A DNA stretch of 64,000 nucleotides from Lactobacillaceae bacterium (GTDB lineage: Bacteria > Pseudomonadota > Alphaproteobacteria > RF32 > CAG-239): assembly GCA_031271345.1 (NCBI GenBank), contig JAISVX010000001.1, forward strand, positions 62,001-126,000, written 5' to 3'. A program made the translations under genes and the position numbers. Shown one piece after another: positions 34,721 to 44,528 of this stretch (the first letter of the stretch is position 1; the number at the start of each line of letters is the position of its first letter). The notes beneath the pieces are model-generated. The model was not told where the DNA came from. It did no database searches and worked only from the letters and a program-made list of their open reading frames with translations.

Positions 34721-34746
34721 CGACAAAACTGGAAATAAAGCGAAAC

Positions 34747-34785
34747 AAAATATTAAATTATTAAAAAATTTAATATTTTGTTTAT
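34747..34785 (+). terminator. AT-rich terminator after parE
   Basis: AAAATATTAAATT (34747-34759) with AATTTAATATTTT (34767-34779), then GTTTATAAT. The stem is long but has no GC pairs. Confidence 0.5.
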
Positions 34786-34840
34786 AATAAATCTGTAATA
34801 TAATTAGCTATATAAAGTTGTATATTATATGGAGTGCGCT

Positions 34841-37756
34841 ATGCAGAAATATTTCTTTCCTGTTTTGGTTTTTTTGTTTTCTTTATCTTGTATTACGGCT
34901 GTTGCGGCTTTGGCGGAAGATTCTGAAGAGACGACCTATAGTCCAACGGACCAATATCTGCTTGATTATCAAGGGACCTTAGACAAGTTCCACGCGCAGG
35001 ATGAAAATATTATAGCCAGCGCTTCTGATATAACTTTTACCAAAAGTTATACGCCTCCTCCCGGGTTTGGCACCACCTTAATTGACGATGTTATCGTCGG
35101 CTATGAGATAGTCAGCGGAAAGGTTGCTCCTGTCTATTATACATACACGCAGGATATGCGCGACAACGTGCCGACCATCAGCAGAATGTCGACCGGCAAC
35201 GGTAACCTGCCGATAACGGGACATTTTATCGGATTACGGAGTCCAACCAATATAGGCGCGGCAATCGCTATCAGCTACGGCGGAAAAATCGGCGACATTA
35301 AAGGGGATTTTATCGGAAACTACGTATCAGGAACAGGATACGGCGGAGCCATCTTCCTCGATGACGCCGGCTCAAGCATACAAAGCATCACTGGCGATTT
35401 TATCAAAAACTATGTTAACGGCACATCATCGTCCAGCAACGCTTACGGCGGCGCGATAGAATTACAGGAAAACGCAAGTATCGGAACCATTAACGGCAAC
35501 TTTATCAGCAATCATATAAACGGCAGCCGATATGTGATTGGCGGCGCCATAATGGTCGGCGGCGGCGCAAGTATCACAACCATTAACGGCAATTTCATCG
35601 GCAACTATGTCAAGGCTGTTAATCGCTCCACTTTAATGGGACTGTCTGGAGGCGCCATATATATCGAAGGCGGAAAAATTGATACCATCAACGGCAATTT
35701 CATCGGAAATTATGTCAGCAGCGAAGCATTTGGTCACTCTGGAGCAGTACACGGATCGATCAGCCGTATAAACGGCGACTTTCTCGGCAACCATGTTGAT
35801 GTGGTTACCCATGGACGAGGCGGCGCAGGAAGCATTGGCGGCGCTAACCCGATATTAAACGGAGACTTCCTCGGCAATTATGTAAAAACGACCAGCACCA
35901 ACAAGACTCATTATACCTTAGGCGGCGCTATTTTCAGCAGCACAAACACCCTGACCCTTGAAGCTGACAATGTCGACCATTTTATGGCGGGCAATTATAC
36001 GGAAGATTTCAGAGGCAAAATCTACAACGCCATTTTTGTAGATACGGGGACTACAGGGAGATCATTGGTATTTAAAACATCCAACGGCGGTTCGTGGTCA
36101 GTTTTTGACAGCATTGAGGGAGGCGTGTACAGCAACAATCAGCTCACTTCTTATAACAATCAATACAACATCAACTTTATCGGAGATGACACTGGAGACA
36201 GCGGCGGTTTCACAACAACCAAAAACTTTATCAAAAATGACATTATTAATGCCGGGGTTATCAGCGTTAACAATACGACGCTGTTTCTCCGCGAAGATAT
36301 TTACGGCAAGGGGCAGATTCTTCCCGGCACAAGTATTACCAAAGCGGCAAACGCTGTGGCTTCCATGTCTCTCAATAATGGCGTTTTTCACATTTATAAC
36401 GGATATTTGGAAGATGTTTCATTGTCCGGCTGGTCCGCGGCATCAAACAGTTACTTGCACCTTGATGTTGACACCGACATAATGCTGGCGGACAAACTGC
36501 TCATTAACGGCAATGTTCAAGGGGTTACAAAGCTGGTGGTTTACGGCACCAGCACCAGAGACATCCGCGGAAAAGGTCCTATTGTTTTTGCACAATCCAC
36601 CAATGACAACACTGGTTCCGCAGGGTCTTTTCAGGTCTTCCGCGTTTATACCAGCCCATATCTTTATAATATAGAATATACCGAAAATGGAACGGATAAA
36701 GAATGGTATTTCATTATGAGCAGCAACAAAAACGACAATAAAAACCCTCCTCCAGAAGTTATTACTCCCGATTTGCCCGGAACGCCGGAAATCAGCGTGG
36801 ATATAGAAGTCGCTTCCGAAGTTGTCGGATATATAGCTCTTCACGAAGCCGCGGTTGAGCAAACCAGAAGCATGGTCAGCAATGTCAGAAACAAAATCGC
36901 CGACAATAAAACATACTGTCCGGGCTGCGGAATTTATGACATAGCTTATAACGGCGCACCTCTTTACAATGTATGGGCAAGCCCGGTTTATCATAACGCC
37001 GCTATTAAAAAACCGCAGGACATGGATGCTAATATATATGGTCTTGATGGCGGGTTTGACATTCAATATGACGCGAACCACAAGCTCGGCGTATTTGCCT
37101 CATACAGAAAAGGCAATTATGACTTGAGCGGCAGGGGCAAAAGATTTGGTTCGCCGATTAAGAGCGAGATTGACATAAACAGCTATATCGGAGGATTATA
37201 TTATCGCTATGATAAAAACAACTTCTGGGCATTCGCAGCTGTTTACAGCGGGATGCAGCAGGCAGATCTCAGCACCAAAGACGGCGTTAAAAATGATACC
37301 GATGGAAGCCAGTTTGGCGGAGAGTTGGATATTGGCTATCTGTTCCCTCTGAAAAACAAATACAGTCTTGAGCCTAATGTCGGAGTTTCTTATACCAGAC
37401 TCGATTTTGATACGATTGCCGACAATTTTGGCAAAACCTCCGAATATAAAGTATTAGGTTACATGGAGGCTAAACTGGGTTTAAAACTGGAAAAAACTCT
37501 GCTTTTAAACAGCGGTCCGGCAAAATTATATATCGAACCAAGCGTTATTCTGGTCTTTACCAGCGGCGATAAGGTAAGGATTACAAACCTTTCGGATGAT
37601 ATAGATACTTACGATGAAGGCACGCTGGGCAGAATAGAATTTGGCGGAAGATATGCCGTTGACAAGCAGCTGTCAATTTTTGGAACAACAAATTATACGT
37701 TTGGTTCAAATTATGACGCTTTATCGCTTAATGTAGGAATAAACTACGCCTGGTGA
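34841..37756 (+). CDS. Autotransporter with FxxN/GGAI passenger repeats
   Basis: A 971-residue type V secretion protein. The ATG at 34841 is preceded by GGAG; the in-frame ATG at 34829 contains that site. A signal peptide of about 25 residues ends near AALA. The passenger holds about eight repeats of 20-35 residues with FIGN/FISN/FLGN and GGAI motifs, as predicted for a beta-helix. From about residue 690 (around CPGCGIYDIAYNG) the C-terminal beta-barrel begins, with alternating strands such as NKLGVFASYRKGNYDLSG-like stretches and a final NVGINYAW. The FxxN and GGAI pair recalls chlamydial polymorphic membrane proteins. A likely surface adhesin (inference). Confidence 0.88.
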   Translation: MQKYFFPVLVFLFSLSCITAVAALAEDSEETTYSPTDQYLLDYQGTLDKFHAQDENIIASASDITFTKSYTPPPGFGTTLIDDVIVGYEIVSGKVAPVYYTYTQDMRDNVPTISRMSTGNGNLPITGHFIGLRSPTNIGAAIAISYGGKIGDIKGDFIGNYVSGTGYGGAIFLDDAGSSIQSITGDFIKNYVNGTSSSSNAYGGAIELQENASIGTINGNFISNHINGSRYVIGGAIMVGGGASITTINGNFIGNYVKAVNRSTLMGLSGGAIYIEGGKIDTINGNFIGNYVSSEAFGHSGAVHGSISRINGDFLGNHVDVVTHGRGGAGSIGGANPILNGDFLGNYVKTTSTNKTHYTLGGAIFSSTNTLTLEADNVDHFMAGNYTEDFRGKIYNAIFVDTGTTGRSLVFKTSNGGSWSVFDSIEGGVYSNNQLTSYNNQYNINFIGDDTGDSGGFTTTKNFIKNDIINAGVISVNNTTLFLREDIYGKGQILPGTSITKAANAVASMSLNNGVFHIYNGYLEDVSLSGWSAASNSYLHLDVDTDIMLADKLLINGNVQGVTKLVVYGTSTRDIRGKGPIVFAQSTNDNTGSAGSFQVFRVYTSPYLYNIEYTENGTDKEWYFIMSSNKNDNKNPPPEVITPDLPGTPEISVDIEVASEVVGYIALHEAAVEQTRSMVSNVRNKIADNKTYCPGCGIYDIAYNGAPLYNVWASPVYHNAAIKKPQDMDANIYGLDGGFDIQYDANHKLGVFASYRKGNYDLSGRGKRFGSPIKSEIDINSYIGGLYYRYDKNNFWAFAAVYSGMQQADLSTKDGVKNDTDGSQFGGELDIGYLFPLKNKYSLEPNVGVSYTRLDFDTIADNFGKTSEYKVLGYMEAKLGLKLEKTLLLNSGPAKLYIEPSVILVFTSGDKVRITNLSDDIDTYDEGTLGRIEFGGRYAVDKQLSIFGTTNYTFGSNYDALSLNVGINYAW
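35213..35950 (+). repeat. Passenger repeats: FxxN and GGAI units
   Basis: Eight coding repeats of uneven length inside the autotransporter. Seven carry an FIxN or FLxN motif (GDFIGNYV, GDFIKNYV, GNFISNHI, GNFIGNYV twice, GDFLGNHV, GDFLGNYV). Most end in GGAI or a close variant. The first unit is degenerate (GHFIGLRS). DNA identity between units is highest for the TTAACGGCAATTTCATCGG-type core. Confidence 0.85.
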
Positions 37757-38363: not shown

Positions 38364-38849
38364 ATGAGTGAAAACAAAGAGTTCAAATGCTGCCCTGAAT
38401 TTACTCCCGAAATATGGAACGAAAAGTTTCATAAATGGAAAAACAAACGCTTTGTAAAAGACAAAGTTTTAACTTTCTTTTATATTCCGCTTAATTTTGG
38501 TTCGGTTATGACCAGGCTCTTCAATAAGATAAAAAAATCTAATGTTGATACGCCGGAATATTTATGTCTTTCAGACCATACGTCAAAATGGAGCATGGAT
38601 ATATACGTCGCGGTTGACGGCAATGTTGAAAAAGCGGAAAACGTGGTTATCAGCGGCGATTTTTTAAGCAAAGTTTATGATGGTCCATACGGCGACACCG
38701 CAAAATGGATGAAAGATTTTGAAAATTATGCAAAAGGCAAAAACGTCAAAATCAAAAAAATATATATGTGGTATGTATACTGCCCAAACTGCGCAAAAGA
38801 ATATGGGCATAATTACTGCACGGTTATCGCGGAAGTGCTGCCGGCTTAA
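38364..38849 (+). CDS. Conserved hypothetical protein with CxxC motif
   Basis: A 161-residue cytoplasmic protein. It matches by eye a widespread uncharacterised family, often labelled hydrolase without proof. Landmarks are FVKDKVLTFFYIPLNFGSVM, YLCLSDHTSKWSMDIYVAV, SGDFLSKVYDGPYGDTAKWM and the C-terminal YCPNCAKEYGHNY. The CPNC pair could bind a metal. CGGAGGA lies upstream of the ATG. No neighbour gives a clue to its role. Confidence 0.7.
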   Translation: MSENKEFKCCPEFTPEIWNEKFHKWKNKRFVKDKVLTFFYIPLNFGSVMTRLFNKIKKSNVDTPEYLCLSDHTSKWSMDIYVAVDGNVEKAENVVISGDFLSKVYDGPYGDTAKWMKDFENYAKGKNVKIKKIYMWYVYCPNCAKEYGHNYCTVIAEVLPA

Positions 38850-40239: not shown

Positions 40240-40316
40240 GCACCCTTAGCTCAACTGGATAGAGCACCTGACTACGGATCAGGAGGTTAGGAGTTCGAAC
40301 CTCTTAGGGTGTGCCA
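40240..40316 (+). tRNA. tRNA-Arg (anticodon ACG)
   Basis: Complete cloverleaf: acceptor GCACCCT with AGGGTGT (G-U at the end), anticodon stem CCTGA/TCAGG around CTACGGA (ACG), T loop TTCGAAC, encoded CCA. It reads CGU, CGC and CGA through inosine. Confidence 0.96.
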
Positions 40317-40412: not shown

Positions 40413-42257
40413 TCATACTACCACCAAAAGTTCATTTTTCCAGCTATTCATCTGCCTATCAATAAATGTTGACCAGTCACCAGAATTATTCACGGAAGAC
40501 AAATCCGTACAAAGGTCATACAAAGCCATTATACTATCCCGACGCATACTGCGACCACTCTCTTTCATCTGTTTGACCACACTTAAAATTTTTGATAATT
40601 GCGCTATTGTTAGGGGAACTATTTTCTGACGCTCGCCTTTATACCCATGTCTTACTGATGTCCAGTACGTTTCAAGCGTGTCTTCATGAAGAGATGGAGC
40701 GACAAACAGACAATAATTAGGAACGGTATTGTTCTTAGTTTCAAAATCTCTTAAATGACGCATAACTGGCTGACCCTCATTATACCACTGGTCACGGCTA
40801 CGCAACATAGTAACCTCACAAATAACACCAAATGTCCCATAATGACATTCTATATCAGGCACTCCCGCAGGAGCAGTAGACGTTGGCTCATTATCATCCC
40901 CAACAGAGGCGTTTAATTTTATACTATCTGCATCATTTATGATGTTTAAAGCAACATTCACCCATTTTTCAAGCTCTAATGGCAATTTGTTGGCAAAGTT
41001 TTCCTTTCGACTGGCTGCTATATCGCCTAAAGTCGTTATTGCCTCATCAATCTTGGAGGTATCACGTGAATAATCAAACTTGATTTCAAGATTTTGCAAC
41101 TCCGTACGATATTCACGAGCAGATTCAATGGCTGCTTTTAACACAACTTTATCCGCAGGAACTGTAAGTGATTTTTCGGCTATGCCAAGTTTTTGTTCCA
41201 GCGCACGAATGTCTACCACGATTGCATTGAATATATTTGTAAGGCTTGGCATTGTATCAAATGGCAATTCATACGCACCATAAGTCCCCATGTATTCTAT
41301 CCATTCGTCTGCGGTATATTCTTTGGCAGAGCCATCGTCATTTTGCAGGATAGCGTCAATTTCAATCATTCGGCGTGGTTCAAGGTCAATATACTGATGG
41401 GCATACTTACCAATAATCCGAATATATTTTGTTTGGCGTAAATAGCGCATCATGCTGTCGCCGTATTCTCTGGAATTTTCAAGCGCATTATCAAAATCAG
41501 CAAGGAATTGCGTTATATAATCTTCTGTATATGCTTTGCGGACCGTTTCACATTCGCGATAATTTCTAAAATCTGCCTGCCTAATACCTTCAAATCCATT
41601 ACGATAATTTAGAAGTTCTGCTGCCGCCGCATCAACATCAGTATAGTTTTTCAATGACAGTGCAAAAATTCCGAATTCTTCTTTGGAAATCCCCTTGACT
41701 TTTTGCCCACGTTCTTCACACATTTCATTTACGCGCTTTATAAGGCGAAGCGTAGAAATAAATGGTTTTGTGTTCCAGTCCCTATACCCCTGCGTTATTG
41801 GGTTTGGCAGTTGGTATTTAAGCATACTGTCTAATATAAAATCGTCCCAGGTTATTGTGCCGTCAGCAAGTTTGCGACCGACATCAGATAAAATAACTTT
41901 TCTATCTACAATATAAACCAATCCCAATTTTTGTAATGGGTTTATTGACTGGCGACCGCGCATAGCTGGGTCTTTGTAGTCCTTCGCTCTAAATATGCTT
42001 TCCGCCTGTTCATAAGTCATATCGAGCGTTTTGTCTTTTAACCAGCTGATTTGTTCGGCAGACAAATTTCTAAATGTTAAAGCGTCTTCGGTTTCGCTTA
42101 AATACTTGCGATGTTGTATAAGCATAATTTGGAAGCGTTCTTGGCACGCTTTGTCCCAAGTCGCGCCATCTAGTAATGCGGCAACCTGCAAAAAGCCAGA
42201 AAGTCGTTCAGGGTTTCTGACAGACGTGGACATATTCCAAAAGATTTCGTTTGGCAT
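40413..42257 (-). CDS. AlwI-family type II restriction endonuclease
   Basis: A 614-residue nuclease of the AlwI family (RE_AlwI), whose relatives cut at a fixed distance from an asymmetric GGATC or GAGTC site. The N-terminal WNMSTSVRNPERLSGFL and INPLQKLGLVY regions fit the family. The catalytic PD-(D/E)xK-like site is seen around residue 480 as PDIECHYG...VICEVTMLRSRDQW, with Thr in place of the usual Lys as in AlwI and PleI. It follows the methyltransferase by nine bases behind AGGAGATTC. The actual site is unknown. Confidence 0.85.
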   Translation of the reverse strand: MPNEIFWNMSTSVRNPERLSGFLQVAALLDGATWDKACQERFQIMLIQHRKYLSETEDALTFRNLSAEQISWLKDKTLDMTYEQAESIFRAKDYKDPAMRGRQSINPLQKLGLVYIVDRKVILSDVGRKLADGTITWDDFILDSMLKYQLPNPITQGYRDWNTKPFISTLRLIKRVNEMCEERGQKVKGISKEEFGIFALSLKNYTDVDAAAAELLNYRNGFEGIRQADFRNYRECETVRKAYTEDYITQFLADFDNALENSREYGDSMMRYLRQTKYIRIIGKYAHQYIDLEPRRMIEIDAILQNDDGSAKEYTADEWIEYMGTYGAYELPFDTMPSLTNIFNAIVVDIRALEQKLGIAEKSLTVPADKVVLKAAIESAREYRTELQNLEIKFDYSRDTSKIDEAITTLGDIAASRKENFANKLPLELEKWVNVALNIINDADSIKLNASVGDDNEPTSTAPAGVPDIECHYGTFGVICEVTMLRSRDQWYNEGQPVMRHLRDFETKNNTVPNYCLFVAPSLHEDTLETYWTSVRHGYKGERQKIVPLTIAQLSKILSVVKQMKESGRSMRRDSIMALYDLCTDLSSVNNSGDWSTFIDRQMNSWKNELLVVV

Positions 42258-42266
42258 AAGAATCTC

Positions 42267-44303
42267 CTAATAGTTTACTATCAAAACCTCTTCGGATTTA
42301 GACACTTTGTCTTTTTTTTGATAGTTTGAGTTACCATAAGAATGGTCAAGCGCAATTACACGGTATTCGTTTTTATCTACCCAGTTTGACAGCAGCGCAT
42401 TTGTTTTTCCTTTACTCGACAATACATTGGACAAGGCAAATTTCACACCTTTTGCATTCAATTTATCCAAGTAATCAAATAGATCTTTTTCGTCACTCTC
42501 ACCCCAGCTTTTTTTTTCATTATATGTGGCACAGGTAATAAGATATGGCGGGTCAACATAAACAAATGTCCCATTATCAAATTTGTTTATATCAACTTTT
42601 CTAAAATCCAAGTGAGAAAATTTACAATTGCTTTGTTTCATACGATCTATAAACAAAGACAACTTCATTTGCATTTTCGAATTAAAGTCCCTCTTACCGA
42701 CTGGCAAATTGAACTTTCCCTTGTTATTGAAGCGGATCTGATTATTGAAAGAATAAACAATCAAAACGTAAAGTACTAAGTAATAATAGTCGTCTTTTTT
42801 TTCAAGAGAATTAAAAACTTCTTTTAATTTTGTAAAGCCCGCCTTGTTGTACTCCTGTAACCCATCATTGCTTCGACAAGAATAATAATCGTATCCGTAT
42901 TTGCTGCTTTCTGATAAGGAAAAATCTTTAATAATATTTTCAATGGCAAAGAGTATGGAGTATTTGTCTTTTTTCTTAAAAAGGTCATATAATCCATACA
43001 AATTTTTATCAATATCATTAAAAATTACCTTTTGTGCTTTTACGTTAATCCCAACATTGCAGCCACCGCAAAATAAATCAACAAATGTTTTTATATTTGA
43101 AGGAAACTCCGGCAAGATTTGTTTTAACAACTTGAATTTGCCTCCAATATAATTTAATGGGGACTGCACTAAGTGCTTCGGAGTTTCTTTGCAAATACAC
43201 AAAAACAAACGTTCTTCGTTGCCCTGAATATCAGATTTTCCCGTTGTAAAAGACTTGTATTGTTTAGAGAAAATTTTCACTTCCCCCTTAGCTTTCAAAA
43301 TGCGCATAATATCTTCGTCAGTTATGCGAGCATTGGAACGATCATTTCCCTTTGCTTCCATGTTATTATACGAAAGCAAGATATAACGAGAGTTTATGTT
43401 CTTAATTAAATCTTCAAAAGCTTTGGGCGCATTAGAAGTGCAGTAATCGCTTTTTAGTCTGTCGCGGTTCATTTTTCGCGCAACACCAAAGACTTTTGGC
43501 TTTTCCCATTTTGCGACATTTTCAAGTAAATGATAAGCATCGCAATACTGTCGCGAATTATATGGCGGATCAATATAAACCAAATCTGCCTCTATTCCTC
43601 CGACCAAAGCATTTGCATCCATATTGAAAAGCCTATTATCTTGTAAACATTCTTCTGGCACAGGCATAAACAACTCAAGCTTTTTATCAAAAGTACCATT
43701 TTGCCTATAAGCGTCGTAGTGACCGCAAGTATTAGCTATTTTATCCATAGAGTACAACAAGGAAGTAATGAGAATCGCCCGCTCGCGGTCATTTATTTTT
43801 TTCGCCTTAAATTCTTTTTCTATATCTTCGCGGATGAAACCTATTTTGCGACAATCGTCTTTATCAAAAAAAGTATTAGCAAAATTCTTACTCATATAAT
43901 TATCTGTAACAACATCTATTCTGTTATAATATTGTATATAATTTTCAATCTTTTTAATTGAATACTTTTGCTGGCTAAACCAAGCGACATGACATATATA
44001 ATTGCTATACAGAATATCGTTAGTTATGAGTTTTTTATCAAGAAAAGCCGAAGACACCGCCCCTGTTCCTGCAAAGATGTCAGCAACAACATTTATGCCA
44101 GCACACTCAGAATCAACAACTTCCTTGATAAAATCAAGAAGTTTATATTTGTTTCCTAAATAGCGCTTATTATTTATTTTGCAGGTTTTTAATTTCAAAT
44201 CATTCTTTGATTTTATAATTGACGAAGTTGTAGAAATTTTTTTATCTTGCCGAAGCAGTTGCAAGGCATCATTTGTGAAATTTTGTGTTTGCACCAGTTC
44301 CAT
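42267..44303 (-). CDS. Fused two-domain DNA adenine methyltransferase
   Basis: A 678-residue protein made of two Dam-type (alpha) N6-adenine methyltransferases. Domain 1 (about residues 45-370) has KRYLGNKYKLLDF, SAM motif DIFAGTGAV and DPPYNSRQYC near 243. Domain 2 (from about 380) has NYIGGKFKLLKQIL, DLFCGGCNVG and VDPPYLITC near 585. Fusion of two methyltransferases is known for asymmetric sites (as in M.FokI), where each strand needs its own enzyme. The ATG at 44303 lies behind AAAGGGGTGG. The AlwI-like nuclease is the next gene. Confidence 0.9.
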   Translation of the reverse strand: MELVQTQNFTNDALQLLRQDKKISTTSSIIKSKNDLKLKTCKINNKRYLGNKYKLLDFIKEVVDSECAGINVVADIFAGTGAVSSAFLDKKLITNDILYSNYICHVAWFSQQKYSIKKIENYIQYYNRIDVVTDNYMSKNFANTFFDKDDCRKIGFIREDIEKEFKAKKINDRERAILITSLLYSMDKIANTCGHYDAYRQNGTFDKKLELFMPVPEECLQDNRLFNMDANALVGGIEADLVYIDPPYNSRQYCDAYHLLENVAKWEKPKVFGVARKMNRDRLKSDYCTSNAPKAFEDLIKNINSRYILLSYNNMEAKGNDRSNARITDEDIMRILKAKGEVKIFSKQYKSFTTGKSDIQGNEERLFLCICKETPKHLVQSPLNYIGGKFKLLKQILPEFPSNIKTFVDLFCGGCNVGINVKAQKVIFNDIDKNLYGLYDLFKKKDKYSILFAIENIIKDFSLSESSKYGYDYYSCRSNDGLQEYNKAGFTKLKEVFNSLEKKDDYYYLVLYVLIVYSFNNQIRFNNKGKFNLPVGKRDFNSKMQMKLSLFIDRMKQSNCKFSHLDFRKVDINKFDNGTFVYVDPPYLITCATYNEKKSWGESDEKDLFDYLDKLNAKGVKFALSNVLSSKGKTNALLSNWVDKNEYRVIALDHSYGNSNYQKKDKVSKSEEVLIVNY

Positions 44304-44528
44304 ATCCACCCCTTTTATGCAACTAAAACATTATATGAGACCCTTGCTTTCCCTATAGTATAATGAAATTAGGCAAATTATATATTGCTTTGATGCAGAA
44401 AGCATCCTTTTCTTTATAACAACTTAATAAATAAAAATCTATATGTTTTTTATTTATTAAAAATCCTGTTGACTTTCGCTTCAAAAGATATATACCGCAA
44501 GTATCTTAATCTTTTTTGAAGAATTTCA

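Follow-up and report, generated by a model that had tools for sequence, protein, structure and literature searches.

The window, by which we mean the whole 64,000-nucleotide stretch of DNA that was analyzed, encodes a 971-residue protein (P0001) that is probably an adhesin, namely a surface-anchored type Va autotransporter displaying variable loops. Its repeat rungs are built like those of the chlamydial Pmp proteins, and the likeness applies to the rung and not to family membership. The features of the gene and its upstream region are given below in window coordinates.

34841–37756, + strand: autotransporter gene P0001, 971 aa (open frame and barrel profile matches)
34841–34915, + strand: predicted signal peptide, residues 1–25 (hydropathy, by inspection only)
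34743–34783, no strand assigned: AT-rich inverted repeat, 20-nt arms that are 95% complementary and 1 nt apart
35225–35962, + strand: repeat rungs, residues 129–374, seven canonical and one degenerate (the first)
35963–36766, + strand: membrane-proximal β-helix, residues 375–642, with a conserved SPY at 605–607
35984–35995, + strand: end of the Asn column in a non-canonical form, M382 to N385 (family alignment)
36107–36109, + strand: Asp423, in the T2-like turn of the rung after the array
36767–37756, + strand: linker, helices 659–674 and 678–688, and 12-stranded autotransporter barrel, with CPxCG at 693–697

The P0001 frame runs without interruption through 971 codons and ends in tryptophan. 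An alternative in-frame ATG lies at 34829; the ATG at 34841 is preceded by GGAG six bases upstream. Residues 1–25 are hydrophobic, as judged by inspection of the hydropathy, consistent with a signal peptide, and the longest single-nucleotide run near the gene start (T7, read by eye) falls within this segment. The inverted repeat sits between a gyrB/parE-type gene and the autotransporter gene, where it overlaps a promoter-like site (34761–34788). It could be either the terminator of the upstream gene or an operator. A search for further copies, as expected of a shared operator, found none elsewhere in the genome when up to three mismatches were allowed.

The C-terminal region of P0001 matched the autotransporter barrel profiles PF03797 (residues 726–949, 97.6 bits) and TIGR01414 (115.5 bits), and a DUF3575 match inside the barrel was just above its cut-off (23.4 versus 21.1 bits). 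An AlphaFold2 model, computed from P0001 and 34 relatives, had a mean pLDDT of 83.1 and a pTM of 0.61, with ten-residue blocks mostly above 90 for residues 151–630 and below 50 for residues 18–101; the passenger is predicted, mostly with confidence, to be a β-helix. The model barrel superposed on those of EstA, NalP, EspP, and AIDA-I (Z 30–32), and the passenger superposed on pertactin (1dab; Z 17.9, 3.5 Å over 408 aligned residues) and UpaB (6bea; Z 18.7, 4.4 Å over 381 aligned residues). The best 50 Foldseek rows for the model were outer-membrane barrel proteins and autotransporters. A PDB sequence search with P0001 alone returned no match, and a search with the family profile returned four at E ≤ 1: EstA, AaaA, a designed barrel, and huntingtin, the last of which (E 0.0011) was taken as chance. 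P0001 shares with pertactin, UpaB, and Ag43 the type Va layout and a right-handed β-helical passenger on which it superposes; to our knowledge, those three proteins lack FxxN/GGA paired-turn rungs. As a separate observation, a CPxCG motif (residues 693–697, window 36917–36931) sits after the helices and before the barrel, and its second cysteine, C696, is present in all 32 alignment rows that have a letter at that position. Cysteines are unusual in autotransporters, and the motif might form a disulfide or a metal site.

F[IL]xN occurs eight times in P0001, at residues 157, 187, 221, 252, 287, 314, and 343 of the array and as a stray at 463. GGAI occurs five times (residues 168, 203, 234, 270, and 361), the two remaining array rungs carrying SGAV and GGAG in its place, and the two motifs alternate along the protein. 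When residues 1–640 were shuffled 5000 times, F[IL]xN appeared on average 0.43 times (maximum 5, versus 8 observed) and GGAI 0.05 times (maximum 2, versus 5 observed). The features of P0001 that exceed chance are the F[IL]xN version of the motif, its alternation with GGAI, and the spacing (27–35 residues from F to F in the rungs), not the bare FxxN count, which was within chance (8 versus a shuffled mean of 2.9 and maximum of 11). No DNA tandem repeat was detected over the array, indicating that the repeat copies are old or are kept at the protein level.

In the model, each of the seven canonical rungs follows the order β1, turn, FI, turn to N, β2a, loop, β2b, GGA turn, β3, where β1 is six to seven residues long, shortened to three in the final array rung, and the loop between β2a and β2b varies in length. 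This order, judged from DSSP and the sequence, was compared with the published Pmp rung, β1-T1-β2-T2-β2a-T3-β2b-T4-β3-T5, which is matched by the seven canonical rungs and partly by an eighth. Debrine and co-workers (PMC10715098) describe the Pmp rung with this β/turn sequence and at least 27 residues; in their account the motifs are buried, the Asn residues form a ladder, and the rung following the array has a conserved Asp. In the family alignment, the last member of the P0001 Asn column has F at position 382 in 21 of the 30 rows that carry a residue there (M in P0001 itself), and N385, the end of the column, is retained in 30 of 30. Asp423 is present in 29 of 31 such rows and, going by the modeled rung, is possibly the analog of the Pmp Asp that seeds the Asn ladder. 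The sequence-only reading had reported seven F[IL]xN motifs alternating with at least five GGAI motifs, a signal peptide, and a C-terminal barrel, and had proposed an alphaproteobacterial type V autotransporter of Pmp-like build. These claims hold, with the eighth F[IL]xN as an addition, the hydrophobic N-terminus and both barrel profiles behind the second, and the barrel match together with the predicted rung order behind the third. Its further suggestion of a role in host attachment reaches past what these data support.

P0001 belongs to a large, uneven alphaproteobacterial family. In a set with one genome per species, P0001-like proteins were found at E ≤ 0.001 in 16 of 31 family genomes, its own included, and none was found at that threshold in the other 15. 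The window genome (1,504,945 bases in 5 contigs) encodes 11 PF03797 barrels, whose frames total ∼13,088 codons or roughly 2.6% of the genome, and across the 49 family genomes searched the number of barrels per genome ranged from 1 to 17 with a median of 5; the family is expanded. Two further autotransporters of the window genome with FxxN/GGA motifs were seen at L043 16183–19137 and 4178–11884 (984 and 2568 aa, respectively), the first of them above the Chlam_PMP cut-off. Among named genome records, 168 stretches matched a pattern and 85 encode a relative, the best 80 of which were analyzed; the titles of relatives refer to uncultured Alphaproteobacteria, Azospirillum, Rhodospirillales, or proteobacterium, and many derive from rumen, colon, and cecum samples. 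A single-protein scan of genome contigs gave 21 pattern matches and an alignment-based scan of viral contigs gave 43, with no relatives in either. Among the matches listed in a search of the open-licence literature, no title or abstract opening concerned this family.

The gyrB/parE-type neighbor had matches in 49 genomes, and 30 loci were compared. The rpsB gene adjoins it in 25 of the 30, and an autotransporter gene lies near it at the window locus only (1/30, with flanks of up to 1.5 kb and some loci reaching contig ends); P0001 is not fixed at its locus. Elsewhere in the window, positions 38364–38849 encode a 161-residue protein of the Bact_hydrolase family PF20603, and positions 40413–44309 encode an AlwI-type restriction endonuclease (PF09491) beside a 680-residue protein that matches D12 adenine methyltransferase (PF02086) in two stretches. 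On these family matches the pair is probably a restriction-modification system, and a tRNA-Arg gene (40240–40316) adjoins it.

The motif pair and rung order, and the Asp placed as in Pmps in the rung after the array, might suggest that P0001 genuinely belongs to the chlamydial Pmp family, having arrived by gene transfer, and has a Pmp-type adhesin or invasin function. We consider this highly improbable. P0001 gave no match at E ≤ 1 to either Chlam_PMP (PF02415) or POMP_repeat (TIGR01376), and its paralog P0002 matched Chlam_PMP weakly (12.7 bits versus a cut-off of 20.6). Across 35 family members, 7 of which are fragments with little or no passenger, Chlam_PMP was matched at E ≤ 1 by 14 (best 6.5e-7) and POMP_repeat by 6; when eight members were scanned singly, five matched Chlam_PMP, one of them above the cut-off (27.1 bits). 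One of the other barrel proteins of the window genome also exceeds the Chlam_PMP cut-off (C2:77368, 21.1 bits). These family matches speak for the transfer, but the profile is unspecific, as matches at E ≤ 10 also appeared in 5 of the 14 genomes used as controls, in one of them over the cut-off, and according to a 2024 paper (PMC11166332) chlamydial proteins make up 443 of the 1448 that carry PF02415, under one third. The middle domain ChlamPMP_M was found neither in P0001, P0002, and the eight singly scanned members nor among 25 of the 26 families listed for the 35 members. Further against transfer, P0001-like genes are spread over 10 genera of a single alphaproteobacterial family, and none of the 24 genomes from other families gave a match (E ≤ 0.001). 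The spacing of the motifs points the same way: FxxN-to-GGA gaps in the family are mostly 8–10 residues (288/492, with 66 of 4–5), whereas gaps of 4–5 account for 122 of 214 in Pmps, and GGA-to-FxxN gaps are mostly 12–14 (316/503, with 195/503 at 14–18), whereas gaps of 14–18 account for 169 of 226 in Pmps (Pmp values from PMC11166332). All of these comparisons with Pmps used profiles, patterns, and published spacing and not chlamydial sequences directly.

The same paper gives the core pattern GGA[ILV]-x(14,18)-FxxN and a derived HMM that its authors find almost exclusive to Chlamydia (675/744). Applied as a pattern and not as the authors' HMM, it matched 3 times in P0001 and 202 times in 57 distinct ORFs, at least once in 55 of the 57, versus a shuffled mean of 0.34 and maximum of 3; the ORF set still contains a small number of different autotransporters, taken from L043, L123, and L125. 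In common with chlamydial Pmps, P0001 is a type V autotransporter in which paired FxxN and GGA(I/L/V) turns are predicted to frame one loop per rung and an Asn column is followed by a conserved Asp that may correspond to the Pmp one, and several such autotransporters occur per small genome. Unlike Pmps, it comes from a different phylum, falls below both repeat profiles, has no ChlamPMP_M that was seen, and belongs to a family with a rung consensus around IxxIxGxFIxN and the gap lengths given above. Going by the model, P0001 would work like a Pmp rod while carrying no Pmp profile assignment. β-Helices with FxxN/GGA outside Chlamydia were already published for Methanobrevibacter, Phycisphaerae, and Trichomonas (Debrine 2023, PMC10715098); in the available part of that paper the motif pair sits at the same place in the rung as in P0001 and other parts of the rung differ, and the examples named come from other lineages, whereas P0001 is alphaproteobacterial and has its own barrel. 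Because P0001 lacks a Pmp profile match and the motif pair was known outside Chlamydia, P0001 adds a member to a known kind of surface protein. The sequence-only claim that the motif pair marks Pmps is not supported, given these two points and the missing middle domain. The refuting condition set with it would go against P0001 taken singly and does not go against the family, in which 14 of 35 members match Chlam_PMP at E ≤ 1.

A different account would treat these proteins as variable surface antigens, in which a common barrel carries passengers that have been diversified or swapped, yielding antigenic or phage-receptor diversity and not one fixed adhesion function. Barrels and passengers were compared among 39 proteins, the pairs sharing genes and so not being independent, and the blastp passenger identities were taken over the best local stretch, which in some pairs is a small part of the passenger. 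For pairs with barrels at least 80% identical, the median passenger identity was 41.6% (35–60) within genomes versus 74.7% (36–95) between genomes (11 pairs each, the same-genome pairs coming from four genomes and not independent). Four paralogs of the CALXRS record set, compared without L084 (which is included among the 39 proteins), likewise had barrels 84–93% identical and passengers 35–44% identical over the best local stretch. Rung number differs between paralogs, the GGA count being 5 versus 16 in the two paralogs of the window genome, and in half of the related loci (40 of 80) the matching ORF is cut by the end of its contig, as is common for repeated genes. These observations would fit passenger diversification, but below 80% barrel identity the same-genome and cross-genome medians hardly differed (39.9 versus 42.2 at 70–80% and 38.8 versus 36.8 at 60–70%), so the contrast at 80% and above may reflect no more than a split between orthologs and old paralogs. 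Within the window genome, the two paralogs share 71% identity over the barrel but 31% over the passenger, and the lack of a DNA tandem array at the P0001 gene also counts against the idea. Barrel gene conversion is not concluded to be the cause of the contrast. Among 63 barrels, 47 of them from records with at least two, the nearest barrel lay in the same genome for 29 of the 47 (shuffled mean 3.1, maximum 12). Of nine barrels picked for inspection, one (L090) was nearest to a barrel of its own genome, whereas the nearest barrel of the other eight belonged to a different genome and was no paralog (cross-genome nearest barrels included L071-L078, L086-L107, and L096-L118, and L080 and L082 were nearest to two JAFTWG barrels), so barrel gene conversion is not general. 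L071 and L078 are mutual nearest barrels, with 84% identical passengers and 81% identical barrels. The array is also stable in a syntenic six-gene set (L088, L089, L097, L091, L102, and L133; 1004–1031 residues with 10–11 GGA[ILV] motifs), although dS approaches or exceeds 1 in all syntenic pairs except L088-L089; the syntenic L112 has 7 such motifs. We regard this account as unlikely. Far less probable still is a surface-layer or polysaccharide-binding or -cleaving β-helix of the pectate-lyase type, in which the motifs would be purely structural. Generic β-helices are common, and those of phage tailspikes superposed on the P0001 model (Z 15.6–15.8), but no enzyme family was matched on the P0001 passenger, and passengers that are only 35–60% identical between paralogs despite similar barrels disfavor one kept active site.

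Substitutions were divided between loops and rung cores in the seven syntenic genes of relatives, with flanks compared. The loop dN was ∼1.5 to 3 times the rung-core dN, which marks the loops as the freer part of the rung. None of the computable dN/dS values exceeded 1, and several loop dS values were saturated, so these data do not show positive selection in the loops.

The reading that we prefer is the surface-anchored type Va autotransporter with variable loops. The signal peptide would direct the protein to the periplasm, where the C-terminal barrel would insert into the outer membrane, and the passenger would then exit and fold from the barrel outwards, C to N, as a right-handed β-helix. 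In each of the outer rungs, one variable loop would be bracketed by an FxxN turn and a GGA(I) turn, both of them buried, so that some eight loops would be aligned along one face of a rod retained on the surface. By analogy with what similar rods do, these loops would contact a target, most likely the mucus or cell surfaces of a host, the cell surfaces of protists, or other bacteria, and the protein would then act as an adhesin. The barrel profiles, the mostly confident β-helix model, the Pmp rung order, the superpositions, the core-pattern excess, and the loop dN argue for this explanation; counting against it are the lack of a computable dN/dS above 1, the 15 of 31 family genomes with no match, and the gene not being fixed at its locus.

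A broader and more tentative suggestion, which we hold to be possible though doubtful, is that these proteins form a variable surface coat of gut and rumen Alphaproteobacteria, made of an expanding set of Pmp-like rods with a shared barrel and fast-diverging, loop-bearing passengers of varying rung number, and that this coat arose independently of Chlamydia with the same rung chemistry, including the Asp seed. The P0001 family is a large alphaproteobacterial addition to the evidence that the FxxN/GGA rung is a general loop-bearing β-helix design and not a mark of chlamydial virulence. It fits the published picture of the motifs as structural elements and the loops as the parts that make contact, and it provides many natural non-chlamydial variants with which that view may be tested.
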